Source: Candidatus Thorarchaeota archaeon (GTDB lineage: Archaea > Asgardarchaeota > Thorarchaeia > Thorarchaeales > Thorarchaeaceae). Taken from it: DNA of 14,259 nucleotides. The stretch covers positions 1-14,259 of the forward strand of contig JAEOST010000092.1 of the NCBI GenBank assembly GCA_016840245.1. The letters run 5' to 3'. Shown here one piece after another: positions 1 to 14,259 of the stretch (position 1 is its first letter; the number at the start of each line of letters is the position of its first letter). The notes beneath the pieces were generated by a model. The model ran no database searches. It had not been told where the DNA came from and saw nothing but the letters and a program-made list of their open reading frames with translations. The position numbers were made by a program, and so were the translations under genes.

Positions 1-556
1 TCACAATCTTGGCTAGTCGTTTTGCAAGCTCGTAGGGACAAATATTCCGTTTCGTAGCTATCTCAACAATCTCGGGTGCGGTCAAGACTCTCTTGGGCAT
101 ACTCTCAATCAGGTCTTCTACATTAGCCATTCTCTTCAGACGTTCATAAAATGGACACTTTCTACTTGATTTCAGTTGACTGCATACTTCACTTATCGAC
201 GCAACAATACCAGCATTCTCAAGAACAAAAGGATTGAGACACATATGCCGCCTCCCTCTGAATGATACTCCACTAACTTCCTGTCCATCACCCTCAGTGA
301 TGGCAACTAGTTCTTCAACCACACGATCCAGTTGCCTGTGAGTTCTTGCACAATACAAGACCTTGCCTTGATTCTCAATTACCCACGGTAGCACTCCACT
401 TAGTGACACACAAGTTTTACCGAAACCATTTGGTGCCTCTGCGCATATCTGCTTGCCTTCTCTTACAGCAGCATCAATCTCCTCCATCATCTCATCCTGA
501 CCCTTTCTTACACTTGGGTATGGAAAGAACTCTTTTGGTGAGATACGCTCTGTCAT
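1..556 (-). CDS. Rad3/XPD-family DNA helicase with Fe-S cluster (N-terminal part only)
   Basis: Partial gene: the ATG is at 556 and the reading frame runs off the left edge after 185 codons. Seen: Walker A motif APNGFGKT at residues 41-48, motif Ia-like region around YCARTHRQLD (68-77), and four cysteines at about 106, 125, 134 and 173 in contexts RRHMC, CSQL, KCPFY and ICPYE. This is the pattern of the XPD/Rad3/FancJ iron-sulfur domain inserted after motif Ia. Family knowledge: these are SF2 5'-3' DNA helicases used in nucleotide excision repair and related processes. XPD is inferred because archaea normally carry this form and the cysteine spacing fits. The DEAH box and helicase domain 2 lie outside the window. 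It diverges from the PAC3/4-like gene at 688. A GTGAGAG stretch just before the ATG may serve as ribosome binding site. Bacterial-type DinG is less likely. Confidence 0.85.
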   Translation of the reverse strand, partial: MTERISPKEFFPYPSVRKGQDEMMEEIDAAVREGKQICAEAPNGFGKTCVSLSGVLPWVIENQGKVLYCARTHRQLDRVVEELVAITEGDGQEVSGVSFRGRRHMCLNPFVLENAGIVASISEVCSQLKSSRKCPFYERLKRMANVEDLIESMPKRVLTAPEIVEIATKRNICPYELAKRLAKIV

Positions 557-648
557 ATACTCTCACAGACTTCGTCTTGTCTATGCTTGATAATCATGTT
601 GTTTCCGCACTCAGTAGGCGCCACTATGTATGAATCCGATACCACCAG

Positions 649-655
649 TTTATTA
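649..655 (+). promoter_or_regulatory. TATA-like box for the PAC3/4-like gene
   Basis: TTTATTA lies 33 to 39 bases before the ATG at 688, at the distance expected of an archaeal TATA box that gives a leader of roughly 10 nt. It sits in the 131-base divergent gap between this gene and the XPD helicase gene. Inference from position and AT content only. Confidence 0.35.
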
Positions 656-687
656 CCACAAAATCAAAAATGAGAGGATAGTGAACG

Positions 688-1035
688 ATGATGGACTTGG
701 ATGACATAGAAGAGTTTGAATCAGATGCCAGTGTTGGTAAGATCAGATTTCGAGCAATGCGACTGGAAAATGGAATTCTGTTGTTGATTTCAGATTCTGA
801 CAAATTTCGTATGGGACTCTCGGCTGTGGCAATACCTCCGGGACAGGGGCGTACTGAACCAACCTCTGCAGGTTTTTTGACCATGGGCTTAGATGCCGCA
901 CTCGTAAGGACTCTTGCAGAGAGAATAGCTGCCTGGACCAATCAGACATGTATGCTGATTATTAGTGTAAAGGGTTTCAATCAGGCTATAATGATGGAAC
1001 TAACGTCAATTCTCAAGAACCATTTTCTGTTATGA
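688..1035 (+). CDS. Small protein resembling proteasome assembly chaperone PAC3/PAC4
   Basis: A 115-residue soluble protein with no signal peptide or membrane segment. After an acidic N-terminus (residues 1-15), the predicted layout is strand (about 29-36, ILLLIS), strand (42-49, MGLSAVAI), a proline- and glycine-rich turn (50-62), a short segment GFLTMGLD (62-69), a helix (70-85, ALVRTLAERIAAWTNQ), a strand (88-93, CMLIIS) and a C-terminal helix (98-112). This order, with hydrophobic strand, MG-containing strand, Leu-Gly turn, helix, strand and final helix, matches my recollection of eukaryotic PSMG3 and PSMG4, which pair to help assemble the 20S alpha ring. The similarity is remembered, not searched, so it is an inference. 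The first ATG is used; a second ATG follows at 691, and GAGG precedes at about 674. The last 23 bases overlap the end of the convergent zinc-finger gene. Confidence 0.6.
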   Translation: MMDLDDIEEFESDASVGKIRFRAMRLENGILLLISDSDKFRMGLSAVAIPPGQGRTEPTSAGFLTMGLDAALVRTLAERIAAWTNQTCMLIISVKGFNQAIMMELTSILKNHFLL

Positions 1036-1243
1036 TATGCTCCACGATGTCCCGTACCCATTTACCCAGACTCTCAAGGTCTTGAACGCGATTCAAATAC
1101 TCTTCCCAAGATATCTCAAGTCCCTTTTGCCACTGAACAAATGCTCCTTTGAGGTTCTCGTGTGCCTTAGAGTGATAGGTACAATACACCGAATCTCCTG
1201 CTGTGCTTCGACCACATATCGTACAATCAGGCACTCGAATCAT
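1013..1243 (-). CDS. Small C2CH zinc-finger protein, conserved hypothetical
   Basis: A 76-residue protein. The N-terminus carries a probable zinc site: C7 and C10 (CTICG), then C21 and H24 (YCTYH). The rest is helical with conserved-looking aromatic positions (FVQWQKGLEISWEEYL at 35-50, GKWVRDIVEHI at 60-70). I recognise this as a type of small archaeal protein with a zinc knuckle plus an SWEEYL-type helix, but I know no function. It follows the topoisomerase gene and overlaps its end by 17 bases, so the two are probably cotranscribed and translationally coupled. The start is uncertain: ATG at 1243 has AGGAG almost touching it, while GTG at 1234 has the same AGGAG about 10 bases upstream, a better spacing. 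With the GTG start the overlap with the topoisomerase stop is 8 bases. A DNA- or RNA-binding role is only a guess from the zinc site and neighbour. Confidence 0.7.
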   Translation of the reverse strand: MIRVPDCTICGRSTAGDSVYCTYHSKAHENLKGAFVQWQKGLEISWEEYLNRVQDLESLGKWVRDIVEHIITENGS

Positions 1244-3377
1244 TCTCCTTTGCTTTCTTGCTTCGCTTTTTCTTTCTCTCTTCTAAGACTTTGAGATCCT
1301 CAGCTCTCCCCGGACATTCAGTCCAGTTGATACAGGTTTCCCATGCTCTCCTACCAGAAACAACCTTGTACATTTTATGGCTGCAATGTTCACATACTTT
1401 CTCAAGAGGTGTTATGTCCCCCTTCTGGGGTAATGGATACGTTTGATCACAATCACCCTCCTTGTAGTTAGAACAACCAACGAATCTCTTTCCTGACTTT
1501 GGAGAACGAATCACAATCAGAGTCCCATCACCACACTTTGGACAGGGTCCCAATTCTTGTTTCTCTTTCCAGAATCTCTGTAGACCTGCTACGAGTGCAT
1601 GACCAATCAGGTCTTCCTGTTTCCTGAACTCATTGAGCAGCTCCAGAAGTGATTTTTTGACACCAGCAAGAACTTCATCTCTCTTTTTCTTCTCCATCTG
1701 GATTTTGTCCATTTCCTCCTCAAGACTGCGGGTAAACTCCACTGAGAGCATCATGGGCATGTACTGCTCAAGGGTATCTAACGCAGCATAACCCAGAGTC
1801 GAAATCTCAAACTTGTCACTGTGAGTATATCCTCTCGATTTTAGAGAATCTACTATTCTTGCCCGTGTTGCTTTTGTCCCCAGGTTCACTCTTTCTAGTG
1901 TCTTTAGTAGACTGGCTGGGTTGAAATGGTGTGGAGGTGCTGTATATTTCTCATCAGCAGATACAGAAATCAATGGTATCAAGTCACCTTCCTTCAAGGG
2001 TGGTAGCTCTCTCTCTCTACTTGTAGCGTAGGGACCATAGTACTCCATCCAACCTGGGACTAGTACTCTGAGTCCTCTCAGATGGAAGAGATGGGCGTCG
2101 CTTGTAATGTCTGCCCGTATACTCTCCTTGACAGAGGGGTCACTAAACAGTGCTAAGAACCTACGGACAATGAGGTCGTAGAGTTTCTTCTCGCTCGGAG
2201 TGAGTTTTACTGGTTTATTACCAGTGGGGTGGATTGCTGGGTGGGCTGGATCAGTTTTTTTGCCCTGAACTGGGACGAGTTTCTTCTTAGCAAGTAAGGA
2301 CTCAGTCAGTCTCTTGTAGATTTTACTTGCTCCTAGCTTCTGAATTATATCTCTGGTGTTAGTACTTTCAGGTATCTTCTGACTACTTGTTCTTGGATAG
2401 GAGATCAGTGCCTCAAGGTACAACTTCTGAGCAAGAGCAAGGGTCCTACTTGGCCTAAAGCCGAAGTGACGATAGGCCTCTGCTTGAAGACCACTTAGAT
2501 TGAAAGGAACTGGTGGTGAGTGAGTAGTCTTTTTCTTATTGATTGAATTAACCTGCCCTGATTTTCCCAACAGGTCGCTGACAATAAAATCAGCCTCTCT
2601 CTTCGCATCCAGACGTTTCTTAGAGTATTCCAATAGCAATTCCTGACCATCATGTTCCCCTTGGGCCAAAATCTGCCAATATGGTATTGGGACGAAGACG
2701 TTGATTTGTCGATTCCGTTCAGCAACAAAAGCAAGTGTCGGACCCTGCACTCTTCCCGTAGATACTATCTTGAACCACCCAACAGTGTTCTTGATAGATA
2801 AGGTCAGAGCACGTGTGAAATTGATTCCATAGAGCCAGTCAACTTCATGTCTTAACTGACCTGCCTCGATTAACGGAAAGTCTAGTTGTGGGGACATATT
2901 CTCATATGAAGACTGCAGTTCGGTTTTGGTCAGATTGGAGAAAATCATTCTTCGTGCTTTTGCAGTGTCTATACCACAGGCATATTTCAACGTGAGATAC
3001 CCAATCAGACTCCCCTCGATATCATAGTCCGTAGCCACAACAAAGCTGTCCATCCCCTCTGATAGTCGCTTTATAAGACTGATAATGGGTTTGACATTAG
3101 TGGCCTTCTTCTGGACCTCGTATTTCGGTACCCACTCCATCTCCAGCCGAGGATAGGTCCACCCTTTCTCAGTCTGTTTCAACTCAAAGAGGTGTCCCAA
3201 TGCATAAACGACAATCAGAGTATCATTGTTTCTCTGACACTCGTAATATGATGCACCACGTTTCTTGATTTCTTTTGGAGTCCCTTGATCATCAAGTGCT
3301 TCTGCAATTCTTTTTGCGGCTGATGGTTTTTCGGATACGATAAGGACTCTTGACAATCCGGATTTCCTCTCTGTCAT
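1227..3377 (-). CDS. topA: Type IA DNA topoisomerase (archaeal topoisomerase I/III)
   Basis: A 716-residue enzyme that relaxes negatively supercoiled DNA or decatenates through a single-strand break with a 5'-phosphotyrosine. Seen in order: Toprim domain (about 10-150) with E16 (SEKPSAAKRIAEAL) and the acidic motif D117-Y-D119-I-E121-G; central cleavage and gate domains (160-590) with GRVQGPTLAFV at 208-218 and catalytic Y327 in LISYPRTSSQ, with R329 beside it; motif HPAIHPTG at 379-386; then two C-terminal zinc ribbons (C612, C615, C635, C643 and C662, C665, C682, C688). The protein ends in a lysine-rich tail. All catalytic residues are present. There is no helicase domain, so it is not reverse gyrase. 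Whether it is closer to bacterial TopA or to TopB/Top3 cannot be settled by eye. No clear ribosome binding site precedes the ATG, so the transcript may have a very short leader. Confidence 0.95.
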   Translation of the reverse strand: MTERKSGLSRVLIVSEKPSAAKRIAEALDDQGTPKEIKKRGASYYECQRNNDTLIVVYALGHLFELKQTEKGWTYPRLEMEWVPKYEVQKKATNVKPIISLIKRLSEGMDSFVVATDYDIEGSLIGYLTLKYACGIDTAKARRMIFSNLTKTELQSSYENMSPQLDFPLIEAGQLRHEVDWLYGINFTRALTLSIKNTVGWFKIVSTGRVQGPTLAFVAERNRQINVFVPIPYWQILAQGEHDGQELLLEYSKKRLDAKREADFIVSDLLGKSGQVNSINKKKTTHSPPVPFNLSGLQAEAYRHFGFRPSRTLALAQKLYLEALISYPRTSSQKIPESTNTRDIIQKLGASKIYKRLTESLLAKKKLVPVQGKKTDPAHPAIHPTGNKPVKLTPSEKKLYDLIVRRFLALFSDPSVKESIRADITSDAHLFHLRGLRVLVPGWMEYYGPYATSRERELPPLKEGDLIPLISVSADEKYTAPPHHFNPASLLKTLERVNLGTKATRARIVDSLKSRGYTHSDKFEISTLGYAALDTLEQYMPMMLSVEFTRSLEEEMDKIQMEKKKRDEVLAGVKKSLLELLNEFRKQEDLIGHALVAGLQRFWKEKQELGPCPKCGDGTLIVIRSPKSGKRFVGCSNYKEGDCDQTYPLPQKGDITPLEKVCEHCSHKMYKVVSGRRAWETCINWTECPGRAEDLKVLEERKKKRSKKAKENDSSA

Positions 3378-3417
3378 CTTAATTTTGGCTAGTACAGCAT
3401 TGCATCTCGCGATAGTC

Positions 3418-3423
3418 TTAAAA
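3418..3423. promoter_or_regulatory. AT-rich element shared by divergent topoisomerase and OST3/6-like genes
   Basis: TTAAAA sits in the 83-base divergent gap, 38-43 bases before the ATG at 3461 and 41-46 bases before the ATG at 3377. Either strand could use it as a TATA box, giving leaders of roughly 15 nt both ways. No other AT-rich stretch in the gap is placed as well. Inference from position. Confidence 0.3.
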
Positions 3424-3460
3424 GCGAACCGCCAAAACTCACCCGCTAGAGGTTCGAAAA

Positions 3461-3889
3461 ATGAGTAGTATCTGGTGGCCTAGGTTCATCGTAAAACCCA
3501 GAGTGAGACTATCTAGGCCTAGATTTGGTATGCCAGCTCGTCCACCAGACATCATTGTATTTGGCCTTGCATTTGTCGCCGTTCTCTTCATTCTAGGCGG
3601 GAATGTATACACACTAGTTAGAACACCTCCGGCAATTGCAGGTGGTGCAAACAACATACCGATTGTGATTGCTCCAGGTATTGATATCCAGCTTGGACTG
3701 GAGGGCATTGTTGCATCAGTGATCGTGTGTATGGGTGTAATTGGCTTTGGGCTCATCTACTACGGGTCAAAATACGTATTCCAACCAGCATATGCAACTC
3801 GTCTGATGATACTTGGAATGATCCTAGCAGGCATCGCCTTCCTAGTATTCAGCTACCTATTCGCATACAAGGTCGGTACATTCTCATAG
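3461..3889 (+). CDS. OST3/OST6 (TUSC3/MAGT1)-like membrane protein, oligosaccharyltransferase accessory candidate
   Basis: A 142-residue membrane protein: basic N-terminus (1-25), membrane segments at about 31-52, 80-101 and 113-137, and a short extracytoplasmic loop between the first two. The loop begins with R54-x-P56-P57 and continues to Q77 and E81 at the head of the second segment. That layout (glycine-aromatic, RxPP, isoleucine-rich loop, Q then E, glycine-rich helix, basic linker, last helix) recalls the C-terminal membrane half of human TUSC3 and MAGT1, subunits of the oligosaccharyltransferase. Their lumenal thioredoxin domain and first helix are absent here. The identification is from memory of those sequences, so it is an inference, but the STT3 gene four kilobases away fits it. 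The start is supported by GAGGT seven bases before the ATG. It is divergent from the topoisomerase gene and convergent with mptE. Confidence 0.6.
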   Translation: MSSIWWPRFIVKPRVRLSRPRFGMPARPPDIIVFGLAFVAVLFILGGNVYTLVRTPPAIAGGANNIPIVIAPGIDIQLGLEGIVASVIVCMGVIGFGLIYYGSKYVFQPAYATRLMILGMILAGIAFLVFSYLFAYKVGTFS

Positions 3890-3909
3890 GTCAATCTCGG
3901 ATTGAGACC
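3889..3909 (+). terminator. Weak hairpin between convergent genes
   Basis: GGTCAATC, a three-base loop, then GATT and GACC separated by a two-base bulge, can fold into an eight-pair imperfect hairpin. It lies immediately after the OST3/6-like stop codon, in the 34-base gap before the end of mptE. It may help end transcription from one or both sides. There is no strong T-run after it. Confidence 0.3.
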
Positions 3910-3923
3910 GACCCTTCATCAAA

Positions 3924-4637
3924 TTACTTCAATATAGTGTACTCGATATTTGACTGAACTAGTGGGGCAAATACCAATTCTTCCGCTATTGACAGCTTGA
4001 TTTGCTTTCTCTCATCAGCTGGAAAGTCCTCATCTCTCCCCGGTTTCGACCATCTTCCAACTATCGTGCCAAAGTCCATACCTGCAAGTACGACCGTTTC
4101 TGGATTGTAGTGTGAAACAATATGACATGCTCTATCTCCATCAGTGAAACCACCCCAGAGAAACGCGCGTTCAGTGGGCTCAACCTGTGTACTGGCGAGA
4201 ACAGGTTGCAGTATTGGTATGCTTTCCATCACAAGATCGATATTATCCCCATGTGCGTGAACAATCACTATTGCACCATGTTCCTGCAGAGTTCTAATAT
4301 CATCAATATTCCCATCTAAATCTGTGACAATGACATCGCACCGAAGACCCACTTCTAACAATGCAGTTGCCGCACCATCAGCTGCCACAAAGACTGCAGT
4401 ATCTTTGTAACTAGTTTCATGTAAATAACGTACATGACGCCCTATTGATGGACCTGCACCACACACAACAGTTGTTCTCCCCTCTATCAAATTTCTCAAT
4501 GTTCTCAGCAGCGGCTGAGGATTCGAATTCTCAAGTAATTGAGTAATGATGCCAGTTGCCCTGTAGTCTGCAGCTGAATCAATACCTAGTCTCTGGACTA
4601 TATCTTGGTATATTGGCTGCCAGTCTTTCCAGTCCAA
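3924..4637 (-). CDS. mptE: 6-hydroxymethyl-7,8-dihydropterin pyrophosphokinase, MptE type
   Basis: A 237-residue cytosolic enzyme of the MptE/DUF115 family, which transfers pyrophosphate from ATP to 6-hydroxymethyl-7,8-dihydropterin. In archaea it replaces the unrelated bacterial FolK. Seen motifs: CGAGPS (59-64, nucleotide-binding turn), AADGA (85-89), DLDGN (106-110, acidic metal site), HAHGDN (127-132) and GGFTDGDRA (162-170); all are characteristic of the family, and the length is typical. The start is TTG at 4637, chosen because GGGTGAT lies six bases upstream and no ATG gives an intact N-terminus. It follows folP by 15 bases, so the two form an operon for successive steps of folate or methanopterin synthesis. 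The product of this enzyme is the substrate of the upstream-encoded synthase. Confidence 0.9.
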   Translation of the reverse strand: MDWKDWQPIYQDIVQRLGIDSAADYRATGIITQLLENSNPQPLLRTLRNLIEGRTTVVCGAGPSIGRHVRYLHETSYKDTAVFVAADGAATALLEVGLRCDVIVTDLDGNIDDIRTLQEHGAIVIVHAHGDNIDLVMESIPILQPVLASTQVEPTERAFLWGGFTDGDRACHIVSHYNPETVVLAGMDFGTIVGRWSKPGRDEDFPADERKQIKLSIAEELVFAPLVQSNIEYTILK

Positions 4638-4652
4638 GTTGAATCACCCTTT

Positions 4653-5855
4653 CTATTTACGCTGCTCAAGAATAGATGATATTCCTTCTCCTATTTCTGT
4701 AAGTCCGAAATATTTCATTAGCTTCAGCTTGTTGCTTAATCGTTCCAGCTGAAAAGGAGTTCCCATGATAAAGAGGTCCGTTTCATCTATCTTATGATCG
4801 ATAACATCGTGATGGTAAGCAGCATCCCCTCCCAGAGCAAGCATTTCCTGTTTGATTATCAATGCAGCTGACGTCCTGATATTTCTCACTAACAGATTCA
4901 GAATCACCGCTTTCCTTGCTAGAACATGTCTGATTCGTTTGCTTGTGCCAACGAGCTCAATTAGAACCTCTGCCTCTCTCTCAGTACATGGGCCAATTAA
5001 CTCCACGCCGCTCTCAATGGTGACTCTATGTTTCTGCAAAGATCTACCCAATATCGATGCTATTTTTGCTTCTTCAACATCATGTGTACGGACCACATGT
5101 GCTCCATTAGACACAGCAATAGACGTGGCTGCAATTGTTCCAGATAGCCTATCATCGGGATCAGGTTGGTTCAGAATACTTCCAATGAACGCCTTACGCG
5201 AAATACCAACGAGTAGGGGATGGCCCAATAATCCGAATCTACGGATATCTCTAATTAATTCAAGGTCAATCTCAGTAGGTTTCCCAAAACCTATTCCGGG
5301 GTCTACGATAATCTTGCCGCTAGTTACACCCACAGACCCTGCAATTTCCAATGATTTCTTCAATGATTGGAAGGTGGAGTCGACAGTCTGGCAAGGTTCT
5401 CTACAATTTGCCATCAGAATAACTGGCACATCTCTATCAGCCACAAGTCGCGCCATTCTCTCATCTCTCTGAAGCCCTGAGATATCATTCACTAGAGCTG
5501 CCCCGTGGTCTAGGGCTACTTCTGCGACAGCAGCCGACATAGTATCAATCGAAACCGGAAGGACTGTAGATTCAATTATTGTTTCCATGTACTGATTGAC
5601 TCTGGCAAGCTCCTCCTCTATGCTTACGTCTGCGGTTGAATAGATGTTCTTGGGTGCAGATGATGCTCCACCAACATCGATTATATCTGCTCCATCACTC
5701 ACAAGTTTCTGTATCCGACTAAGGAGTGCATCCTCATTTAGTACGGTAGAGCCCTTGTGAAAAGACTCAGAGGACAGATTCACAACACCCATGATTCGGA
5801 CTGGATGACGGTTTCCAATCTCCAAATCGTTCACACGTACTATGTGACTGTTCAA
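4653..5855 (-). CDS. folP: Dihydropteroate synthase-like enzyme with extra C-terminal domain
   Basis: A 400-residue protein. Residues 1-275 form the pterin-binding TIM barrel that joins a hydroxymethylpterin pyrophosphate to an arylamine: MGVVNLSSESF (22-32), VGGASSAP (61-68), SIDT (102-105), NDISG (123-127), DPGIGFGK (185-192), GISRKAFIG (217-225) and RTHDV (256-260). The second motif departs from bacterial GGESTRPG, losing the arginine of that loop. This suggests a different arylamine partner, perhaps the ribofuranosylaminobenzene phosphate of methanopterin synthesis (inference). Residues about 280-400 are an added domain containing IIKQEMLALGGDAA (333-346), DLFIMGT (360-366) and LKLMKYFGL (377-385). 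I recall the same module at the N-terminus of some clostridial synthases. The start is TTG at 5855: an in-frame stop lies 15 bases upstream, and GAGGT sits about nine bases before the TTG; GTG at 5834 is an alternative. First gene of the pterin operon. Confidence 0.9.
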   Translation of the reverse strand: MNSHIVRVNDLEIGNRHPVRIMGVVNLSSESFHKGSTVLNEDALLSRIQKLVSDGADIIDVGGASSAPKNIYSTADVSIEEELARVNQYMETIIESTVLPVSIDTMSAAVAEVALDHGAALVNDISGLQRDERMARLVADRDVPVILMANCREPCQTVDSTFQSLKKSLEIAGSVGVTSGKIIVDPGIGFGKPTEIDLELIRDIRRFGLLGHPLLVGISRKAFIGSILNQPDPDDRLSGTIAATSIAVSNGAHVVRTHDVEEAKIASILGRSLQKHRVTIESGVELIGPCTEREAEVLIELVGTSKRIRHVLARKAVILNLLVRNIRTSAALIIKQEMLALGGDAAYHHDVIDHKIDETDLFIMGTPFQLERLSNKLKLMKYFGLTEIGEGISSILEQRK

Positions 5856-5965
5856 TTCTAACAGACCTCATTTTAAGGGATAAATCGAAGTATATGTATG
5901 AGTACATAACTATTCTTGGGAACAAGAAGGGGGAGAACTCAACTGACTCAAGAAACGGGTCAGAG

Positions 5966-5975
5966 ATTTAAATAC
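5966..5975 (+). promoter_or_regulatory. TATA-like box upstream of gcvT
   Basis: ATTTAAATAC is the best match to an archaeal TATA box in the folP-gcvT gap. It lies about 145 bases before the gcvT ATG, so transcription from it would give a leader of about 120 nt that includes the 6011-6053 hairpin. A weaker box (GATAAAA near 6067) would give a leader of only about 20 nt, so the choice is open. Confidence 0.4.
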
Positions 5976-6010
5976 AAAGGCGAGAGGCAGGAGAAGGGTG
6001 GAACACAGAA

Positions 6011-6053
6011 GTTTCTTGCAGTTGATGTTTACTCATTTTAAAGTGCAAGAGAT
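6011..6053 (+). other. Stem-loop in the gcvT leader
   Basis: GTTTCTTGCA (6011-6020) can pair with TGCAAGAGAT (6044-6053) over ten pairs, two of them G-U, closing a 23-base loop. It lies 66 bases before the gcvT start and would be in the transcript if the 5966 promoter is used. I see no match to the known glycine riboswitch core. Function unknown; it may be chance. Confidence 0.3.
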
Positions 6054-6118
6054 GCGTCATCGAAGCAGATAAAACCACCTCGATTTGTGCCACAGACCAA
6101 GAGTCAGGGTGATTTTAG

Positions 6119-7267
6119 ATGGTTGAGAACCTTGAGCGAACACACTTGTACGATTGGCATAAGGCCCATGGTGATGTAATCCCCTTTGCGGGATGGGAGA
6201 TGCCAGTGAGATACACTGACATCAGAGATGAGCACATGGCCATCAGGGAAGCCGTGGGAATCGGTGATGTTACTCACATGTTCCGATTTTTCATAAAAGG
6301 CCCACAGGCAGCTGATTTCCTGCAGACTGTCACAACAAACAACGTTCACAAGATCAAGATTAACGGTGGACACTATACAACCTGTCTCAATGAACAAGGT
6401 GGAGTAATGGACGACCTGATGCTTTACCGAGTTGAGGAACACGAGTTCATTTGGGTCACTAACGCATCTAATGGTCCAAAGATATACGACCACCTTATGA
6501 AACACTCAACAAACTTTGAGGTGCAAGTTGAGGACAAATCAAAAGAAGTAGTCATGATTGCAGTGCAAGGACCTAATGCCATGGCTCTGCTCTCTAAGAT
6601 GGCTGGCAAGGAGTTGTCTGAATTTGGTCGGTTCACGTGCAATCCAGTTACTCTAGCAGGCCGTGATTGTTATTGTTGTCGTACAGGTTACACCGGAGAG
6701 GATGGTGCTGAGATACTCCTTCTGGATGTTCCTTTCGATGAAACAGGAAAGAAGAAGGCCATTACTTTCTGGGAGGATATGCTCAATCAAGGTGAGGAGT
6801 TTGGAGTCAAGCCTTTCGGTCTTGGTGCAAGGGACTCAACCCGGCTAGAGGCGGGTTTTGTCCTCTATGGTCATGAGCTTGATGAGGAAACATCTCCCAT
6901 AGAGGCCCGAATCGCTTACGCAGTGAAGTTCAAGGTTGACCCACATTACATCGGTTATGATGTTGTTTGGGCACACAAGAAGGAGAAAGCTATCAGAAAG
7001 ACACGTATTGGTCTTGTGATGATTGATAGAGGTATTCCTCGTGAACACTATCCGGTCATTTTGAATAGTGAAACTATCGGAGAAACCACAAGTGGCGGAC
7101 TCTCTCCTATTACGAAGAAGGGAATTGCCATGGCCTATGTCAAGCCCGGAGTTGTCAGTGAGGGCGACTTGGTTGAGGTAGATATCAAAGGCAGGCTCCG
7201 TAGTGCTGAGGTGACCTCTTGGCCTTTCTATGACACCGAGAAGTATGGTTCTACTCGGTCTGCTTAG
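6119..7267 (+). CDS. gcvT: Aminomethyltransferase (glycine cleavage system T protein)
   Basis: A 382-residue cytosolic enzyme that takes the aminomethyl group from lipoylated GcvH, releases ammonia and passes methylene to a tetrahydropterin carrier. Seen: PFAGWEMPVRY (22-32), DVTHMF (50-55, DVSHM in most relatives), QGGVMDDLMLYR (93-104) with the catalytic aspartate pair D98/D99, VTNASN (113-118), RTGYTGEDGAEI (188-199), and LGARDSTRLEAG (235-246) followed by YGHELDEETSPIEA (250-263); the barrel domain GcvT_C follows to the end. Length and motif order are normal. The ATG is preceded by GGGTGAT with good spacing. gcvH follows after 58 bases on the same strand. No gcvP or dihydrolipoamide dehydrogenase gene is visible here, so the rest of the complex must be encoded elsewhere. 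Confidence 0.96.
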   Translation: MVENLERTHLYDWHKAHGDVIPFAGWEMPVRYTDIRDEHMAIREAVGIGDVTHMFRFFIKGPQAADFLQTVTTNNVHKIKINGGHYTTCLNEQGGVMDDLMLYRVEEHEFIWVTNASNGPKIYDHLMKHSTNFEVQVEDKSKEVVMIAVQGPNAMALLSKMAGKELSEFGRFTCNPVTLAGRDCYCCRTGYTGEDGAEILLLDVPFDETGKKKAITFWEDMLNQGEEFGVKPFGLGARDSTRLEAGFVLYGHELDEETSPIEARIAYAVKFKVDPHYIGYDVVWAHKKEKAIRKTRIGLVMIDRGIPREHYPVILNSETIGETTSGGLSPITKKGIAMAYVKPGVVSEGDLVEVDIKGRLRSAEVTSWPFYDTEKYGSTRSA

Positions 7268-7325
7268 TATGATAAGTGATTTAAGGAACGTAAAATCTTG
7301 CGTCATCATTCGGTGGTGATTCCTT

Positions 7326-7724
7326 ATGGCTGAAGGTAAGGACGTACGTGATGACAGAAAATACAGCAAGGAACATGAATGGGCCAAGATAGAGGGAGAC
7401 TTAGTTATCATAGGAATCTCTGATTTTGCTCAGAATTCACTGCATGAGATTACTTATGTTGAGGTATCGGAAGCCGGTACTACTGTAGACATCAACGGCG
7501 AATGTGGACTCATAGAATCGATGAAAGCATCATCTGAGATCTATTCTCCAATTGCCGGAGAAATAACAGAGGTAAACTCCGCTCTTGAAGACGCTCCTGA
7601 ACTTGTTAACGAATCGCCTTATGAAAAGGGATGGCTGTATAAGATTAAACCATCCAATCTAGAGGCAGACCTTGATAGTCTTATGGATGCTAAGGCCTAT
7701 TCAGAGTACACTGAATCACTCTAG
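7326..7724 (+). CDS. gcvH: Glycine cleavage system H protein (lipoyl carrier)
   Basis: A 132-residue carrier protein that shuttles the aminomethyl intermediate between the P, T and L proteins on a lipoyl-lysine arm. The lipoylation site is K67 in LIESMKASSEIYSP (62-75). Other family marks are YSKEHEWAKIEGD (13-25), VIIGISDFAQNSLHEITYVE (27-46), GEITEVNSAL (78-87) and PELVNESPYEKGWLYKI (91-107). Length is normal. The ATG has GGTGGTGAT about five bases upstream. A TTTAAG near 7279 could give it a promoter of its own, but the short gap suggests cotranscription with gcvT. No lipoate ligase or lipoyl synthase gene is seen in the window. Confidence 0.96.
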   Translation: MAEGKDVRDDRKYSKEHEWAKIEGDLVIIGISDFAQNSLHEITYVEVSEAGTTVDINGECGLIESMKASSEIYSPIAGEITEVNSALEDAPELVNESPYEKGWLYKIKPSNLEADLDSLMDAKAYSEYTESL

Positions 7725-7768
7725 TGCCTATAACCTATCTCTAGGTACAAACCAAGATGAGCAGAGGC

Positions 7769-7798
7769 ATTCTGAGAGTGTTTCAGAATCACTTTCAG
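7769..7798 (+). other. Two overlapping, mutually exclusive hairpins after gcvH
   Basis: ATTCTGA (7769-7775) pairs perfectly with TCAGAAT (7783-7789). Alternatively CTGAGAGTG (7772-7780) pairs with CACTTTCAG (7790-7798), nine pairs with one G-U. The two cannot form together. The site is 45 bases after the gcvH stop and about 75 bases before the STT3 start. It could be a terminator for gcvTH or a leader element; a T-run comes only at 7830. Confidence 0.35.
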
Positions 7799-7829
7799 AT
7801 GTTGTACAATAGCTGAACCAACAGCAACC

Positions 7830-7835
7830 TTTTTA
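7830..7835 (+). promoter_or_regulatory. TATA-like box for STT3
   Basis: TTTTTA lies 38-43 bases before the ATG at 7873, a workable TATA distance for either candidate start of the oligosaccharyltransferase gene. It could equally be a termination T-run for gcvH. Weak evidence. Confidence 0.25.
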
Positions 7836-7872
7836 GCCGTGCCAAGATTGGCTCGGATGACTTCGAGTAAGA

Positions 7873-10629
7873 ATGGAGAGAACGCTCTATATGTCCAAGT
7901 CGGCTAGATTCAAGAGATCAGCTGGAAGATTCCTTCGACAGGTCTTCCACAGACCAAAAGCCAAGATGTCTCGTGGTTCCATAATGCTGGTTCTCATACT
8001 GACAATCCTATTCTTTGCAGCATTGCTACTTCGTCTTGAACCACTCCTAGATGCCCAGCCGATTGTGCGCGCATTTGATCCGTGGTTCCAGCTGAAAGTA
8101 ACTGACTATATCGCTGAGAATGGTTATGCTGCATTTTTCAACTGGCATGATACTACAACATGGGTTCCCTTCGGTCGTGATATGACCACAGCAGCCTATG
8201 TTGGTGTTCCATTCACAAGTGCATTCTTTTACTTCATACTGAATGGCTTGGGTATTCCAGTAGACGTTATCTACGTCTCACTGATTATGCCTGCCTTTAT
8301 GGGTGCACTCACAGTGATTGCAGCCTTTTTCCTTGGACGCGAATTACAAAATAACACAGTCGGACTACTATCCGCACTATTCATGGCCTTCATTCCTGCA
8401 TTCATTCAGAGAACAGTAGCAGGTTTCTATGACAACGAGTGTATGGGAGTTTTCGCAATCGTTGTCACTATGTACTTCTTCGTTAGAAGCTTGAAGAGAG
8501 ATTCACCAACATCTGCAATCTTCGCGGGTCTATCACTTGCTCTCCTCATGGCATCATGGGGTGCAGGAGACTTCCTGTTTGACCTATTCGCTCTGTATGC
8601 ATTCTTGATGTTGGTATCAGGAAAATACAGCAAGCGTCTACTCAATTCGTATCTGATCACAATTGCATTGGGTCTATTCATAGGTAGTCTTGTTCCACGA
8701 AATGGGTTCGGTAATCTGACCTCATTCTCACTCCTAGCTCCCATTGGAGTAGGTGCATTATTAGCATTCTATGAGGTCTGGCTCAGGATTGGAGGTTATC
8801 GAGAGGCAACTGCAAGCGCACTCACGCCTCATATGAAACCAATTCTTCTTGGCCTTATCGCTCCAATCGCAGGAGTAGCAGCGTACTTTACAATTGCGGG
8901 CAGTGCAGACCTGAACATATCGATTTTCAATTCAAATCCAATTGTAACAATTGGTGGTAAGTTTCTCACTGTTATCAATCCGTTCTTCCGGCTTGATCAG
9001 AGGATTTTTGCATCAGTCGCAGAACATCTACCAAGTCCATGGAGCAGCTTCTATCATACACTGAATGTACTGATATTCCTCTTCCCACTTGGAATGTATT
9101 TTGCATACAAAAGAGGACGGGATGAGGATTGGCTGATATTCCTCTATGGCCTCACAGCAGTCTACTTTGCAGGTAGCATGATTCGCCTCAGTCTTATTCT
9201 GGCTCCAGGCGTTGCTGTTCTTGCTGCAGTTGCTGTAAGCAGTGTTCTGACTCCATTTGCAAAGGTAGTCACACAGAAGTCTATCTTTGAACGCCGTCGA
9301 TTCAGAACGAGTTCATCCCTCACCTCGGAGCATGCGATTACTGCTTTCGTGTTTATAGGCATGATACTCTCGGTCAACGTGATGCTTGGGACATCCTACG
9401 CAACATCACAGATTGGTAACCCTGAATTCTCATCTGCACCACTATCACAAGGGGGACAGATGACTGACTGGCAGACTGCGATGACTTTCGTACGCAATGT
9501 GTTACCAGCAACAGCCGTGGTTGCTAGTTGGTGGGATTATGGTTATTGGATAAACAGTGCAGGTGGCGCGCAAACTATAGTGGATAATGCAACGCAAAAT
9601 ACGACGCAAATAGCAGCAATGGGATATGCGTTGATGTCACTTAACCTGACGGAGTCTCTCCGTACGTTCTCACAGTGGAACACATCTCATGTACTCGTCT
9701 ACTGGGGCCATCGACATCCTGCCTTTGGAGGCGATGAGGGTAAGTGGCCTTGGATGGTTCGTATCGCTGAAGACCGCTTTGGCAAAAATGTGATTGATGA
9801 TGCAACCTATCTGGATGAGAGTGATCAGACAAAGGACGCATTCTACCAGTCCACTCTGTACAAGCTGTTACTCTTTGATGAGCCAACAACCGTAACAGAT
9901 GCTCAGGAGAAAGGTCTAACTGACGCCAGGATTAGTCTTGATCAGTATTACTTGGAAGGTGGCGATACTGACCCATGGATTGCTAACATCCCACTCACAC
10001 TCCATGATGCGTTCGATTTGGTCTATACCAGCTCCGAATATGGTACCGTAAAGATCTATGAGATCAACTACGATATGTACGAACAGTCACTCAACAGGAC
10101 TGATGCTGACTGGAAAATGGAGGGTGGCTTGTTAGATGATACCCAGCTAGATGGAGATATCTCAGAAGAGGAAACCGCATTCCAGTCATACAACATCATC
10201 TTCGGTGGTGGATATGAAGGGACAGTCTATACTCAGTCAAACACATCCCACATCTATTTCGGTATAGACATGGACAACTATGTGTTTGGTGATGATGCAT
10301 TCGGTATCCAGTTGGCACCTTTGGGATCCACAGATAGCGCAGACTTCCGCATAGTCAACTATGAGGGAGAAGAGTACTACGATGGATATCTCAGGTACGA
10401 TGGGTCATGGACTCCTGATACAACCGGTGCAAATTCATCAGAGTATGCTACTGGAGAGAACACTATCGAGTTCATGTTTGCATATGGATCGGATGATCCC
10501 CACGATATTGCTCTGAATCTAGGAATGAACTATCAGATTCGATTCATGTTCTGGAACAACGTCGATTCTGGAGAACCATCCTTCACAACACAATGGGTAA
10601 CATTCTGGGTTCCAGCACCCCTGTTCTAA
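7873..10629 (+). CDS. aglB: Oligosaccharyltransferase catalytic subunit STT3/AglB
   Basis: A 918-residue membrane glycosyltransferase that moves a lipid-linked oligosaccharide onto asparagine of secreted proteins. Residues 36-508 hold about a dozen membrane segments. Catalytic features seen: D69 in RAFDPWFQL (first acidic site), YDNE at 186-189 (second acidic site), SVAE at 381-384 in the position of the TIxE/SVSE motif, R438 in MIRLSLILAP, WWDYG at 553-557 (sequon recognition), and D621-x-x-K624-x-x-x-M628, a DK motif in the arrangement of eukaryotic STT3. DNATQNTT (571-578) also recalls eukaryotic DNNTWNNT. Residues about 765-918 form an added acidic, beta-rich domain. The first ATG is at 7873; ATG at 7891 (GGAGAG ten bases upstream) is a reasonable alternative that removes six residues. 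It is flanked by gcvH upstream and convergent nop10 downstream. Confidence 0.95.
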   Translation: MERTLYMSKSARFKRSAGRFLRQVFHRPKAKMSRGSIMLVLILTILFFAALLLRLEPLLDAQPIVRAFDPWFQLKVTDYIAENGYAAFFNWHDTTTWVPFGRDMTTAAYVGVPFTSAFFYFILNGLGIPVDVIYVSLIMPAFMGALTVIAAFFLGRELQNNTVGLLSALFMAFIPAFIQRTVAGFYDNECMGVFAIVVTMYFFVRSLKRDSPTSAIFAGLSLALLMASWGAGDFLFDLFALYAFLMLVSGKYSKRLLNSYLITIALGLFIGSLVPRNGFGNLTSFSLLAPIGVGALLAFYEVWLRIGGYREATASALTPHMKPILLGLIAPIAGVAAYFTIAGSADLNISIFNSNPIVTIGGKFLTVINPFFRLDQRIFASVAEHLPSPWSSFYHTLNVLIFLFPLGMYFAYKRGRDEDWLIFLYGLTAVYFAGSMIRLSLILAPGVAVLAAVAVSSVLTPFAKVVTQKSIFERRRFRTSSSLTSEHAITAFVFIGMILSVNVMLGTSYATSQIGNPEFSSAPLSQGGQMTDWQTAMTFVRNVLPATAVVASWWDYGYWINSAGGAQTIVDNATQNTTQIAAMGYALMSLNLTESLRTFSQWNTSHVLVYWGHRHPAFGGDEGKWPWMVRIAEDRFGKNVIDDATYLDESDQTKDAFYQSTLYKLLLFDEPTTVTDAQEKGLTDARISLDQYYLEGGDTDPWIANIPLTLHDAFDLVYTSSEYGTVKIYEINYDMYEQSLNRTDADWKMEGGLLDDTQLDGDISEEETAFQSYNIIFGGGYEGTVYTQSNTSHIYFGIDMDNYVFGDDAFGIQLAPLGSTDSADFRIVNYEGEEYYDGYLRYDGSWTPDTTGANSSEYATGENTIEFMFAYGSDDPHDIALNLGMNYQIRFMFWNNVDSGEPSFTTQWVTFWVPAPLF

Positions 10630-10643
10630 GTATTGGTCTAATT

Positions 10644-10671
10644 GGCGGTTGATCTCATGGGATCAATCGCC
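10644..10671. terminator. Strong hairpin between convergent STT3 and nop10
   Basis: GGCGGTTGATC (10644-10654) and GATCAATCGCC (10661-10671) form an 11-pair stem with one G-U pair and a six-base loop, in the 73-base gap between the two converging genes. A T-rich stretch (AATTCTTTTC) follows on the plus strand. It is best read as a terminator or 3' end stabiliser, possibly acting in both directions. Intrinsic hairpin terminators are not the rule in archaea, where T-runs dominate. Confidence 0.55.
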
Positions 10672-10702
10672 TGACAATTCTTTTCATAAAGACAAATGGA
10701 CA

Positions 10703-10879
10703 CTATCCAGAAGATGCCTCTCTGGCCTTTTTTTTGGCTTTTCTACGATACATGCCATACTTGTCTTCAGGAGAATATTTTGGAGGTCGAGGACTAACCA
10801 CAGTTCCACCACATTTTGGACACTGTTCCTCTTCTAGAGTGTATTCATTGCATTGGTTACACTTGAATATCTGGGACAC
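10703..10879 (-). CDS. nop10: H/ACA ribonucleoprotein protein Nop10
   Basis: A 58-residue protein of the H/ACA complex, which guides pseudouridine formation in rRNA together with Cbf5, Gar1 and L7Ae. Seen: zinc ribbon C7, C10, C20, C23 (FKCNQC and QCPKCG), then PRPPKYSPEDKYGMYRRKA (30-48), the linear segment that wraps on Cbf5, and a basic tail. It is easy to miss because it starts with GTG at 10879. The ribosome binding site GGGGTG overlaps the aIF2-alpha stop codon, and only nine bases separate the two genes, so it is the last gene of the L44e-S27e-aIF2-alpha-Nop10 operon. This order is a well-known archaeal neighbourhood. In many archaea a COG2047 (PAC2-like) gene follows; here the operon ends instead. 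Confidence 0.95.
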   Translation of the reverse strand: MSQIFKCNQCNEYTLEEEQCPKCGGTVVSPRPPKYSPEDKYGMYRRKAKKKAREASSG

Positions 10880-10888
10880 TTTACACCC

Positions 10889-11683
10889 CTACTTACGAGC
10901 AAAGACTATTGTACCACCACTGCTCTCAATTGTCTTTGTTACAATTTCCAATATGCCTGATAGTATATCCTCAGCCTCTTTATAGTCAGGGCTTATAATT
11001 CGCAGCTTGTACCGTGGAGAGCCAAGCGTATAGATCTCAGTAGTGGATTTGTCATGATCCTTACTATGCTCAAGTCCTCCAGAGAGCGCTTTCTTGATAG
11101 CCTCAACTCCCTCGGGACCTGGTACTTGAATTGTCATTTCACCATCAATCTCAACTGATGGTATCTCGATTCGGGCTTTAGCAAGGTCTGCCACCTGCTT
11201 CTTTAGCTTCTTGGTAGCCTCTACTTCTTCAAATGCCTCTTCCCCGATATCTGACGCTTTCTCCAGTCCTTTGTAGATTTCGCCAAAGACATCTTCCATT
11301 GGCCAACCAATCTGCTGATAGACTTCTTCTATTGTCATTTCATTCTCTTTGGCAATCAATTCTAGCAATTTCTCAGCTTTTTGTGCACGTTTCCACTCAT
11401 TGTTCTTTGCTCTCTTCGCTTCTGTTGAAACCCTTCTCAGGGAGCAATCAATGTGTTGCTTTTGAGTGTCCACCTGCAAGACCTTGACGACGACCCTCTG
11501 ATTCTCACTAATATGATTCCTTATGTTTCGAACCCAAGTGCTACTTACCTCTGAGATATGAATGAAACCTTCCTTTTTACCATATTCGGGAAGAGTAACA
11601 TATGCACCATAAGGGGCAACCTTTGTGGCTACCGCAACAACAAACTCATCTGGCTGTGGCCAGTCAGCACGCTTTAGGACCAT
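10889..11683 (-). CDS. eif2a: Translation initiation factor aIF2 subunit alpha
   Basis: Alpha subunit of the heterotrimer that brings initiator Met-tRNA to the small ribosomal subunit. With the start chosen here it has 264 residues: S1-type beta barrel (about 11-83, with VAPYGAYVTL and EGFIHISEVSS), a helical domain (84-170) and a C-terminal alpha/beta domain (175-264, IEIPSVEIDGEMTIQV and YKLRIISPDYKEAEDIL), which contacts the gamma subunit. S47 aligns with the phosphorylated Ser51 of eukaryotic eIF2-alpha, but the arginines after it are missing. Start: ATG at 11683 gives the usual MVLKRADWP beginning and has GGAGGT nine bases upstream. ATG at 11692 and GTG at 11704 are in frame but would overlap or sit on that site. 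Third gene of the ribosomal operon, 44 bases after S27e. Confidence 0.95.
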   Translation of the reverse strand: MVLKRADWPQPDEFVVAVATKVAPYGAYVTLPEYGKKEGFIHISEVSSTWVRNIRNHISENQRVVVKVLQVDTQKQHIDCSLRRVSTEAKRAKNNEWKRAQKAEKLLELIAKENEMTIEEVYQQIGWPMEDVFGEIYKGLEKASDIGEEAFEEVEATKKLKKQVADLAKARIEIPSVEIDGEMTIQVPGPEGVEAIKKALSGGLEHSKDHDKSTTEIYTLGSPRYKLRIISPDYKEAEDILSGILEIVTKTIESSGGTIVFARK

Positions 11684-11727
11684 TGTCTGCATACCTCCAG
11701 TCACAGCATTGAAGCCATGACGGCAAT

Positions 11728-11928
11728 TTATGGAAGAACATCAAGCTCTCTGGCGTTTGAGTCGAGCTTCGCCTTTCCACCGGTTGGTATGGCCAAGACC
11801 TTCTCACACTTTAAGCATTTCACTTCAGTACTTGCATGACTGAAAATGACCTGCTCATTCTCACAATCAAGACACTTGACTCGAATGAATTTCGATTTTG
11901 GTAGTTGAACTATCTCTCCCTTGGTCAT
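11728..11928 (-). CDS. rps27e: Small ribosomal subunit protein eS27 (S27e)
   Basis: A 66-residue zinc-binding protein of the small ribosomal subunit, found in archaea and eukaryotes but not bacteria. The zinc ribbon is C19, C22 (KCLDC) and C38, C41 (KCLKC), followed by VLAIPTGGKAKL (44-55), the usual C-terminal half. Length is normal for archaea. The ATG is preceded by GGGTGAT that starts right at the L44e stop codon, with a 12-base gap between the two genes, so translation is probably coupled. Second gene of the operon. Confidence 0.96.
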   Translation of the reverse strand: MTKGEIVQLPKSKFIRVKCLDCENEQVIFSHASTEVKCLKCEKVLAIPTGGKAKLDSNARELDVLP

Positions 11929-11940
11929 TTTCTAATCACC

Positions 11941-12222
11941 CTATGCTCTCTCAATATCCAATTTCTTGAGTCGCATTGCCTTAGACTGGATAGTATAACC
12001 ACAATCAACACATTTCAGCTTGGGAAGCTGCTTCTTTGTGGTCTTAGCGAAACGCTTCTGAATGGGCTTTGGGAACGAACCGTAACCTTTCTTCTTTCGC
12101 TCCACTCGTCGAGTGCCTTCTGCCCTTGATCTATCCTTTCCTTTCTTGTATAGACTAACTTTGTGTGCTGTATGTGCTTTGCACCTGGGGCAATATTTTC
12201 GCATTTCAGCCTTCATCTTCAT
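11941..12222 (-). CDS. rpl44e: Large ribosomal subunit protein eL42 (L44e)
   Basis: A 93-residue very basic protein of the large subunit that lies near the E site. Seen: zinc cysteines C11, C14 (YCPRC) and C71, C74 (KCVDC), and the family signature KKKGYGSFPKPIQKRFAKTTKK (43-64), which includes the GYGS-F-KP loop and the K-T-T-K-K run. Start: ATG at 12222 has GGTGAT five bases upstream; in-frame ATGs at 12216 and 12204 are less well placed. First gene of the operon; a TATA-like box lies upstream at 12264-12273. Confidence 0.96.
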   Translation of the reverse strand: MKMKAEMRKYCPRCKAHTAHKVSLYKKGKDRSRAEGTRRVERKKKGYGSFPKPIQKRFAKTTKKQLPKLKCVDCGYTIQSKAMRLKKLDIERA

Positions 12223-12263
12223 ACAGAATCACCAATCTATGGCTGACGGACCCCTTTCTGAGT

Positions 12264-12273
12264 CATTTATAAC
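12264..12273 (-). promoter_or_regulatory. TATA box of the L44e-S27e-aIF2-alpha-Nop10 operon
   Basis: On the minus strand GTTATAAATG lies about 42-51 bases before the L44e ATG, a good match to the archaeal TATA consensus at a distance that would give a leader of about 20 nt containing the GGTGAT site. It falls in the 85-base gap after the Sec61-beta gene, which indicates that the ribosomal operon has its own promoter. Confidence 0.55.
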
Positions 12274-12307
12274 ACTTGGGGCATGGTCTGCTGTTTCGAG
12301 CGGCTAA

Positions 12308-12511
12308 CTATGACGCTAAGCCAATCTGTGCCGCTAGATGTGCTATAACAGTAGCAATCACAAGCATGGAAGCAAAGATAACTACCAGTGTGGGTCCGAC
12401 CTTTATTCCCGGAGTTTCATCTTCGAAGAAGCGTATAAGACCTGCACCACCTGATGGCATTGGTCCTTCACCTTTCTTCTTACGACGTTTCTTTGCAGTC
12501 TTTGGACTCAT
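12308..12511 (-). CDS. Preprotein translocase subunit Sec61-beta (SecG)
   Basis: A 67-residue tail-anchored protein of the SecY translocon. Seen: very basic cytosolic N-terminus (3-13), the archaeal signature PMPSGGAGLIRFFEDE (17-32), TPGIKVGPTLV (33-43), and one membrane segment (about 41-61). Length and layout are typical of archaeal Sec61-beta. GGAGATG lies seven bases before the ATG. Gaps of 81 bases upstream and 85 bases downstream, each with a TATA-like box, suggest it is transcribed alone. Confidence 0.95.
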   Translation of the reverse strand: MSPKTAKKRRKKKGEGPMPSGGAGLIRFFEDETPGIKVGPTLVVIFASMLVIATVIAHLAAQIGLAS

Positions 12512-12554
12512 GTTAATACATCTCCGGGGACTGAATCATCTGCTCAGCTGTGAA

Positions 12555-12561
12555 CTTTTAA
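12555..12561 (-). promoter_or_regulatory. TATA-like box for Sec61-beta
   Basis: On the minus strand TTAAAAG lies 44-50 bases before the Sec61-beta ATG, giving a predicted leader of about 20 nt. It is the only AT-rich element well placed in the 81-base gap after the MazG-like gene. Confidence 0.4.
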
Positions 12562-12592
12562 TCCTTTTGACACGTGCTCAAATGTACAATTA

Positions 12593-12889
12593 CTATGGAT
12601 TCTCAATACATTCACATGGTATCTTCCCACATCTGGAGCATCCCTTTCCATACTTCTTGTTGAGTGCGTCAGATATGTCAACATCAATGAGGTTGGCGAG
12701 GGAGCATAGCCAAGCAAATACATCAGCCACCTCGCCCACGACCTCATCATTGCCTGCTCCTTTTAGGATAGCATCACTGAGCTCTCCCAGTTCTTGGAAC
12801 GTTCGCAGTAGTGTGCGTTCTATGCCTCTCGCCTTATCGCGGTCATAGTAGATTCGACGCATCAACTCTTGGGCTTCTTTGGTGTCCAA
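12593..12889 (-). CDS. MazG-like nucleotide pyrophosphohydrolase with C-terminal cysteine tail
   Basis: A 98-residue all-alpha protein of the MazG/dUTPase-2 type, which hydrolyses nucleoside triphosphates to monophosphates, often to clear damaged nucleotides. The metal-binding pattern is present: E33-x-x-E36 (FQELGELSDA) and E53-x-x-D56 (GEVADVFAWL). The C-terminus adds C84, C87, C92 and C94 (CSRCGKIPCEC), a possible small metal site; I recall similar cysteine-rich ends in archaeal relatives. The substrate cannot be told from sequence. Start: TTG at 12889, supported by GGTGAT six bases upstream; the next in-frame ATG (codon 10) would cut into the first helix. It follows glyA by 26 bases and is probably cotranscribed, though no functional link is evident. 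Confidence 0.85.
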   Translation of the reverse strand: MDTKEAQELMRRIYYDRDKARGIERTLLRTFQELGELSDAILKGAGNDEVVGEVADVFAWLCSLANLIDVDISDALNKKYGKGCSRCGKIPCECIENP

Positions 12890-12915
12890 GGATAGATCAC
12901 CTGACTCAAGAGCAT

Positions 12916-14238
12916 CTACATGAATCTAAGATGAGCGTATGCTTCAGTTTCAGTATCAAAGGCATAGTGGACTTTTTGGTATTCTTTCTTGAACTCTGCG
13001 ACATCAGCTGCAACTTTCTTGACATCTTCCTCTTTCATAACAATACGAGTAATGAATTCGGCAATAGCATCCATCTCGGACTCCTTCATTCCTAATCGAG
13101 TGGTTTCACTTGTGCCTAATCGAATACCACCAGGAGTCTTGTAGTCCCTACCTCTCTTCTTGTCCCAAGGCAAGAGGTTACGGTTAATGATGATATTAGC
13201 ATCCTCCAGTGTCTCCTCGACGTTACTCCCATCCTTCAGTGGGGTTTCTGTGATGTCTACAAGAATAGTATGTGACTCAGTGAATCCCTTTTGCTCTGCT
13301 ATGACGTGGAATCCGCGCTCATGGAGTGCTTGAGCAAGTGCCTTAGCATTCTTGAGGATTTGACCAGTATAGTCCTTTCCGAACTCCATGAGTTCTGCAA
13401 AAGCAACTGCCAGGCCAGCCACATTATGCAAGTGATGGTTGCTCATCATTCCTGGGAATGCAGCTCGCTTGATGGCATCTGCAAATTTCTCATGACTCAA
13501 AAGGCATCCATGCTGTGGACCAAAAAGCGTCTTATGGGTTGACAGAGTCACCATATCGGCGCCCTCTCTAAGTGGATCTTGGAAACGACCTGAGGCAATT
13601 AGTCCGGAAACATGAGCAGAGTCGTAACCAATGGTCATGCCGTATTCATCAGCAATTTCTCTGAATTCTTTCACTGGATGTGGGAATGGGAATACACTAC
13701 CACCAAAAAGCAGGAATTTAATCTCGTCTCCCTTATCTTGGAGTTTCTTTATCTTCGCTTTGCTAGCATCTATATCGAAATTGAACTCCTCATCGTTGAA
13801 GACCCAATTCTGGACCTTGTGACCACGGATTGCACCAGCCGTACCACCAAGATTTGCCCTTGCGTGAGAGATGTGACCTCCATGTGCAATCGAGAGTGCC
13901 ATCATTCTCTCCCCTGGTTTCATAGCTGCTGCGTACATCATAAGGTTTGCAACAACACCTGATATGGGTCTGACATCGGCAAACTCTGCATCGTACAACT
14001 TCATTGCAAGCTTCATACAAATCAATTCGACCTCATCGATGTACTTGCAACCGGCATATACTCTCTCGCCGGGCCAACCCTCTGCATATCGGTCTCTAAA
14101 GTCGCTGACTATTGCAGACCGTACAGCAGGTGAACTGACGTTCTCAGAGGCAATGAGATTGATTGTATTACTCATCCAATTGTCATGTTTTTCCAATAAG
14201 TCGAATATTTCATCGTAGACCTTCTTATTATCGCTCAA
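12916..14238 (-). CDS. glyA: Serine hydroxymethyltransferase
   Basis: A 440-residue PLP enzyme that interconverts serine and glycine with transfer of a C1 unit to a tetrahydropterin. Seen: NLIASEN (27-33), YAEGWPGERVYAGCKYID (51-68), AHGGHISH (118-125), YDSAHVSGLIASG (205-217) with D206 binding the pyridine nitrogen, and LSTHKTLFGPQHG (232-244) with the PLP lysine K236. TPGGIRLGTSETTRLGM (residues around 370-390) is the C-terminal family motif. Length is normal. Start: TTG at 14238, with GGAGG eight bases upstream. The carrier could be tetrahydrofolate or tetrahydromethanopterin. The gene sits in the same window as gcvT, gcvH, folP and mptE, though in a separate transcription unit with the MazG-like gene. 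Confidence 0.96.
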   Translation of the reverse strand: MSDNKKVYDEIFDLLEKHDNWMSNTINLIASENVSSPAVRSAIVSDFRDRYAEGWPGERVYAGCKYIDEVELICMKLAMKLYDAEFADVRPISGVVANLMMYAAAMKPGERMMALSIAHGGHISHARANLGGTAGAIRGHKVQNWVFNDEEFNFDIDASKAKIKKLQDKGDEIKFLLFGGSVFPFPHPVKEFREIADEYGMTIGYDSAHVSGLIASGRFQDPLREGADMVTLSTHKTLFGPQHGCLLSHEKFADAIKRAAFPGMMSNHHLHNVAGLAVAFAELMEFGKDYTGQILKNAKALAQALHERGFHVIAEQKGFTESHTILVDITETPLKDGSNVEETLEDANIIINRNLLPWDKKRGRDYKTPGGIRLGTSETTRLGMKESEMDAIAEFITRIVMKEEDVKKVAADVAEFKKEYQKVHYAFDTETEAYAHLRFM

Positions 14239-14259
14239 GCAATGGGCCTCCCTAATCCA

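Follow-up and report, generated by a model that had tools for sequence, protein, structure and literature searches.

The eukaryotic proteasome assembly chaperones PAC3 and PAC4 bind alpha4-alpha6, on the face of the alpha ring that is turned towards the beta subunits (PMC6539346, PMC11327110), with a mobile loop of PAC3 (residues 51-61) carrying residues that contact alpha6 (PMC6539346). The literature consulted describes PAC3/PAC4 for eukaryotes, and to archaea it assigns homologs of the eukaryotic assembly factors PAC1-PAC2, namely PbaA and PbaB (PMC3605417). LpdD is a chaperone that binds reduced prenylated flavin mononucleotide (prFMNH2); its conserved His35, His61 and Asp63 bind a metal that according to its authors is not essential for activity, and it has a conserved flexible loop at residues 53-66 (PMC10865409). 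Our literature searches, which covered open-licence papers, found no paper on archaeal or Asgard PAC3/PAC4 or LpdD. Here we describe a gene for a PAC4-like protein in a 14,259-nucleotide stretch of a Candidatus Thorarchaeota genome (GenBank assembly GCA_016840245.1, contig JAEOST010000092.1, positions 1 to 14,259, forward strand; hereafter the window). It is the Thor-type representative of a family that occurs across the Asgards, usually as a single copy, and shares the fold common to PAC3, PAC4 and LpdD.

The original prediction, made from the letters alone, had read a 115-residue PAC3/PAC4-type protein here. The open reading frame of 115 codons (Table 1; stop included in the coordinates) is matched by 57 proteins at 53-92% identity, every organism-named one of which belongs to Thorarchaeota or Promethearchaeota, and an alignment of 30 Thor family members has 17 invariant columns; it is therefore a real gene and not a chance frame. 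Since most relatives align from the second ATG (691), the natural start may lie there. The better predicted model has strands at residues 7-14, 17-26, 29-35, 44-49, 59-63 and 87-93 and helices at 68-84 and 99-114, with the lowest predicted local distance difference test scores (pLDDT, about 75) at residues 1-10 and 51-70. These six strands and two helices follow the PAC3/PAC4 arrangement and come in the order first proposed. Human PAC4 is the top match of the window protein by structure, at 18-20% identity, and also of a wider Asgard profile (A5), which recovers it among Protein Data Bank (PDB) chains at 1.6e-5 and 3.5e-5 and aligns the helix with LAERIAAWTNQ to LAQRLARKTNKQ of human PAC4, so that the suspected likeness of this helix to PSMG4 is borne out. 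On these predicted models and profiles, the nearest solved structure to the Asgard family is eukaryotic PAC4.

The assignment to a PAC3/PAC4 type thus stands by fold and by the wider profile, but not by the Pfam score, as the window protein reaches 21.7 bits against PAC4 (PF16093), whose gathering cut-off is 31. A match to PF16093 below E 1 is present in all 30 Thor members (best 1.1e-6). Sequence searches of the PDB with the window protein alone or with a Thor-only profile turned up no PAC chain. PAC3 (PF10178) gave no match in 222 genomes, in a search where control genomes gave none either and which hence had no positive control. Compared with eukaryotic PAC4 (PSMG4; yeast Pba4) and its partner PAC3 (Pba3), the window presents a single gene below the Pfam cut-off, with no PAC3-type partner found in that same search. 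It differs likewise from PbaA and PbaB of the PAC2 family: the window protein has no match to PAC2 (PF09754) at E up to 10, and its C-terminus reads HFLL and not an HbYX motif (as defined in PMC11327110).

The survey of Asgard genomes that the original prediction had called for revealed a wide distribution. Among the 227 genomes of the phylum the Thor-only profile matched 67 (44 closely) and the widest profile 182; setting aside nine genomes (G079-G085, G188, G197) judged LpdD-only on a better LpdD score and not on match position leaves up to 173 that carry the family, mostly in one copy, 14 of them with weak matches (E above 1e-14). Organism names in three protein searches were of Asgard groups only, though most matches were unnamed and one search listed 120 of 201 matches. 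Lineage labels used here were assigned by our analysis, except names attached to proteins or to G001-G006.

The original prediction overlooked LpdD, which shares the fold and whose partners UbiX and UbiD lie beside cousins of the window gene. Profiles of the PAC-like proteins and of LpdD recognise one another (E 1.7e-12), a point in favour of an LpdD-like role. UbiX-linked members (A9, n = 15) match the LpdD family PAC_bac (PF21758) in 14 cases (best 4.2e-9), PAC4 in 14 (best 5.9e-7) and PAC3 in seven (best 0.0045); Heimdall-type members with a few of G183 type (A8, n = 22) match PAC4 throughout (best 4.1e-7) and PAC_bac in 13 (best 0.0094); true LpdD (A4, n = 9) matches PAC_bac throughout (best 6.7e-36) and PAC4 in seven (best 5.3e-5). 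PAC4-likeness alone therefore has no power to separate the family from LpdD, from which it is set apart by PDB profiles and structure. Automatic annotation has already touched the family, with two differing functions, since NCBI names one relative (P0155) a 'proteasome assembly chaperone 4 family protein' and another (P0065) a 'prenylated flavin chaperone LpdD'.

The reading that we tentatively favour, at somewhat short of an even chance, is that of a PAC4-like chaperone, probably for assembly of the 20S proteasome at its alpha ring; structure, profiles and survival in genomes without UbiX and UbiD favour the PAC4-like role. Such a protein would form a small dimer, bind alpha subunits that are neighbours in the ring from the side facing the beta subunits, as PAC3-PAC4 do in eukaryotes, and depart as beta subunits arrive. 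Residues 50-60 form the most conserved stretch of the Thor members and would lie at about the place of the PAC3 mobile loop and the LpdD flexible loop. Proteasome-subunit matches number four in each of the Thor-type genomes G002, G191, G200 and G220 and two in the Heimdall-type G034 and G061, so that sorting of unlike subunits would not be a general requirement. In 86 loci, taken one per genome with six from Thor (L001-L006) and not independent of one another, a proteasome subunit gene adjoins the family gene on the same strand, 133-673 bases away, in three (two lineages), and in two of these (L096, L098) UbiX adjoins its other side. The latter loci, from G183 and G184, carry in succession on one strand a proteasome subunit gene, an unassigned gene of 170 residues, the PAC4-like gene and UbiX. 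A gene from a PAC2-type sequence cluster (representative PF09754) occurs on the same strand in 31 loci at a median distance of 3.7 kb, all within one broad related group (L087-L155); here and below, neighbour families were identified through Pfam from one representative each.

The old linkage of the family to UbiX and UbiD favours an origin as a cofactor chaperone. The archaeal branch of the mevalonate pathway comprises UbiX, a UbiD-type decarboxylase and an aconitase-X-type dehydratase. The available part of PMC9385802 names the dehydratase and the decarboxylase, and does not name UbiX or UbiD. The main alternative, possible if less probable, is that the protein works like LpdD and would take over prFMNH2 from UbiX and deliver it to a UbiD-type decarboxylase, in its ancestral setting within such a mevalonate cluster. 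UbiX directly adjoins the family gene in nine of the 86 loci, spread over five tree branches (Odin-type, Baldr-type, G183 type, G008 and G227), UbiD lies within about 2.4 kb in 12 and aconitase X is near in six; the window itself has genes in common with UbiX-linked loci (Table 1), and the Odin-type P0059 scores 36.2 bits for PAC_bac, above the cut-off of 27. Against this, the window protein reaches 16.9 bits for PAC_bac, and the column of LpdD His35 holds no histidine in 111 family members and that of His61 holds one in two, where all nine LpdD have both; the window protein has Arg and Leu at these positions and Asp at the third. The metal is, according to the LpdD authors, dispensable for activity (PMC10865409), a point in favour of the LpdD-like role. 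True LpdD moreover occurs in 60 of the 227 genomes, among them 45 of the 47 Thor-type (G001-G006, G186-G226), and stands alongside a family member in 48 of the 173.

Nor does the family co-occur with UbiX: both are present in 107 genomes, the gene only in 66, UbiX only in 36 and neither in 18 (Fisher p 0.63, uncorrected for kinship). Absence of UbiX was judged at E 1e-30 for all 227 genomes, at 1e-3 for 52 and with a curated model for 53. At 1e-3 half of the 52 gave a weak match (26), the best being a fragment in G053 (7.9e-15) that may be a true partial UbiX; the curated model exceeded its cut-off in none of 45 UbiX-less genomes tested and in all eight chosen positives. Some of the 66 gene-only genomes are small or incomplete, but whole groups lack UbiX (G013-G018, most of G020-G035, G061-G067, G070-G076 and G091-G098), so that incomplete genomes are unlikely to explain its absence there. 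Of the 45 tested genomes, 26 retain UbiD and 19 lack it, which thus bear the family gene with neither protein found; in one of these, G093, a single 4.36 Mb contig accounts for nearly all of roughly 4.4 Mb. In favour of the LpdD-like role, UbiD lies on the gene's own contig and close by in 17 of 18 genomes tested in G015-G035 (for example L144-L150). All 18 keep UbiD, with no recognisable UbiX. On the whole, a strict dependence of the family on prenylated flavin mononucleotide is weakened.

That the fold is a general platform for small chaperones, and that Thor members, which have an invariant loop peculiar to them, bind another partner, we consider unlikely: the neighbours of the gene change with lineage, the loop at about residues 50-60 is far more conserved in Thor than in the remaining family, and family genes persist without UbiX and UbiD, but the solved relatives matched by structure point to no third client. 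A chance resemblance to PAC3/PAC4 through a common order of strands and helices is very improbable, given the structural and wider-profile matches to PAC4, despite the low identity to the human protein and the PDB chains missed by the window protein and the Thor-only profile.

Table 1. Features of the window, with the basis for each name or its recurrence among the 86 loci.
Feature	Coordinates	Strand	Basis or recurrence
DEAD_2 / Helicase_C_2 helicase, start, cut by the window edge	2..556	-	family of L002:7954-9879 (Pfam); similar gene in 9/86 loci
PAC4-like gene, alternative start 691	688..1035	+	family matches, Pfam, predicted model and fold
Loop, codons 50-60, with P50, G52, G54, P58 and S60 invariant in the Thor family	835..867	+	invariant columns
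Cys-rich protein, 76 residues, without Pfam family	1013..1243	-	convergent with the PAC4-like gene, ends overlapping by 23 bases
DNA topoisomerase	1227..3377	-	named by reading the sequence; similar gene in 8/86 loci
Putative membrane protein, 142 residues	3461..3889	+	common to UbiX-linked L099, L109 and L131 (E 3e-6, 2e-23, 8e-21)
Dihydropteroate-synthase-like protein	4653..5855	-	named by reading; common to UbiX-linked L109 and L131 (E 7e-86, 1e-82)
GcvT, GcvH (glycine cleavage), oligosaccharyl-transferase-like and translation-related genes	6119-14238		named by reading the open reading frame list only

The tail-to-tail arrangement of the Cys-rich and PAC4-like genes is kept in the six Thor loci. 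The window contains neither UbiX nor UbiD as neighbours, and in two Thor genomes UbiD is separated from the family gene by about 20 kb (G002) and 22 kb (G200); this distance, together with the window genes that recur in UbiX-linked loci, makes the window locus look like a rearranged relative of a UbiX-linked one. A protein of about 253 residues with a weak, sub-cut-off match to DUF460 is found near the PAC4-like gene in ten of the 86 loci, Thor and UbiX-linked (L006:7193-7954; L001-L005, L106, L109, L131, L151).

In a tree of 70 rows human PAC4, a single partial eukaryotic sequence on a long branch, stands beside two Heimdall-type groups (support 87/81, not starred). Constraining it to group with LpdD was not rejected (p 0.36), nor was a grouping with Thor (p 0.27); placement with the group labelled Loki was rejected (p 0.004). 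The grouping with Heimdall-type members is a lead to ancestry only. A further proposal, which we hold to be doubtful, is that eukaryotic PAC3/PAC4 descend from an Asgard cofactor chaperone of a prFMN-dependent (mevalonate) cluster that was recruited to proteasome assembly. If this were true, its stages would be visible in living Asgards as UbiX/UbiD-linked members, proteasome-adjacent members and Heimdall-type members without UbiX or without both UbiX and UbiD. A widespread Asgard PAC4-like gene would place the starting point of dedicated alpha-ring chaperones among prokaryotes, and the link of its cousins to UbiX and UbiD provides a concrete alternative, possibly a cofactor chaperone turned assembly chaperone. 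The family may therefore bear on the origin of the eukaryotic proteasome chaperones, a question that becomes testable with one small protein.
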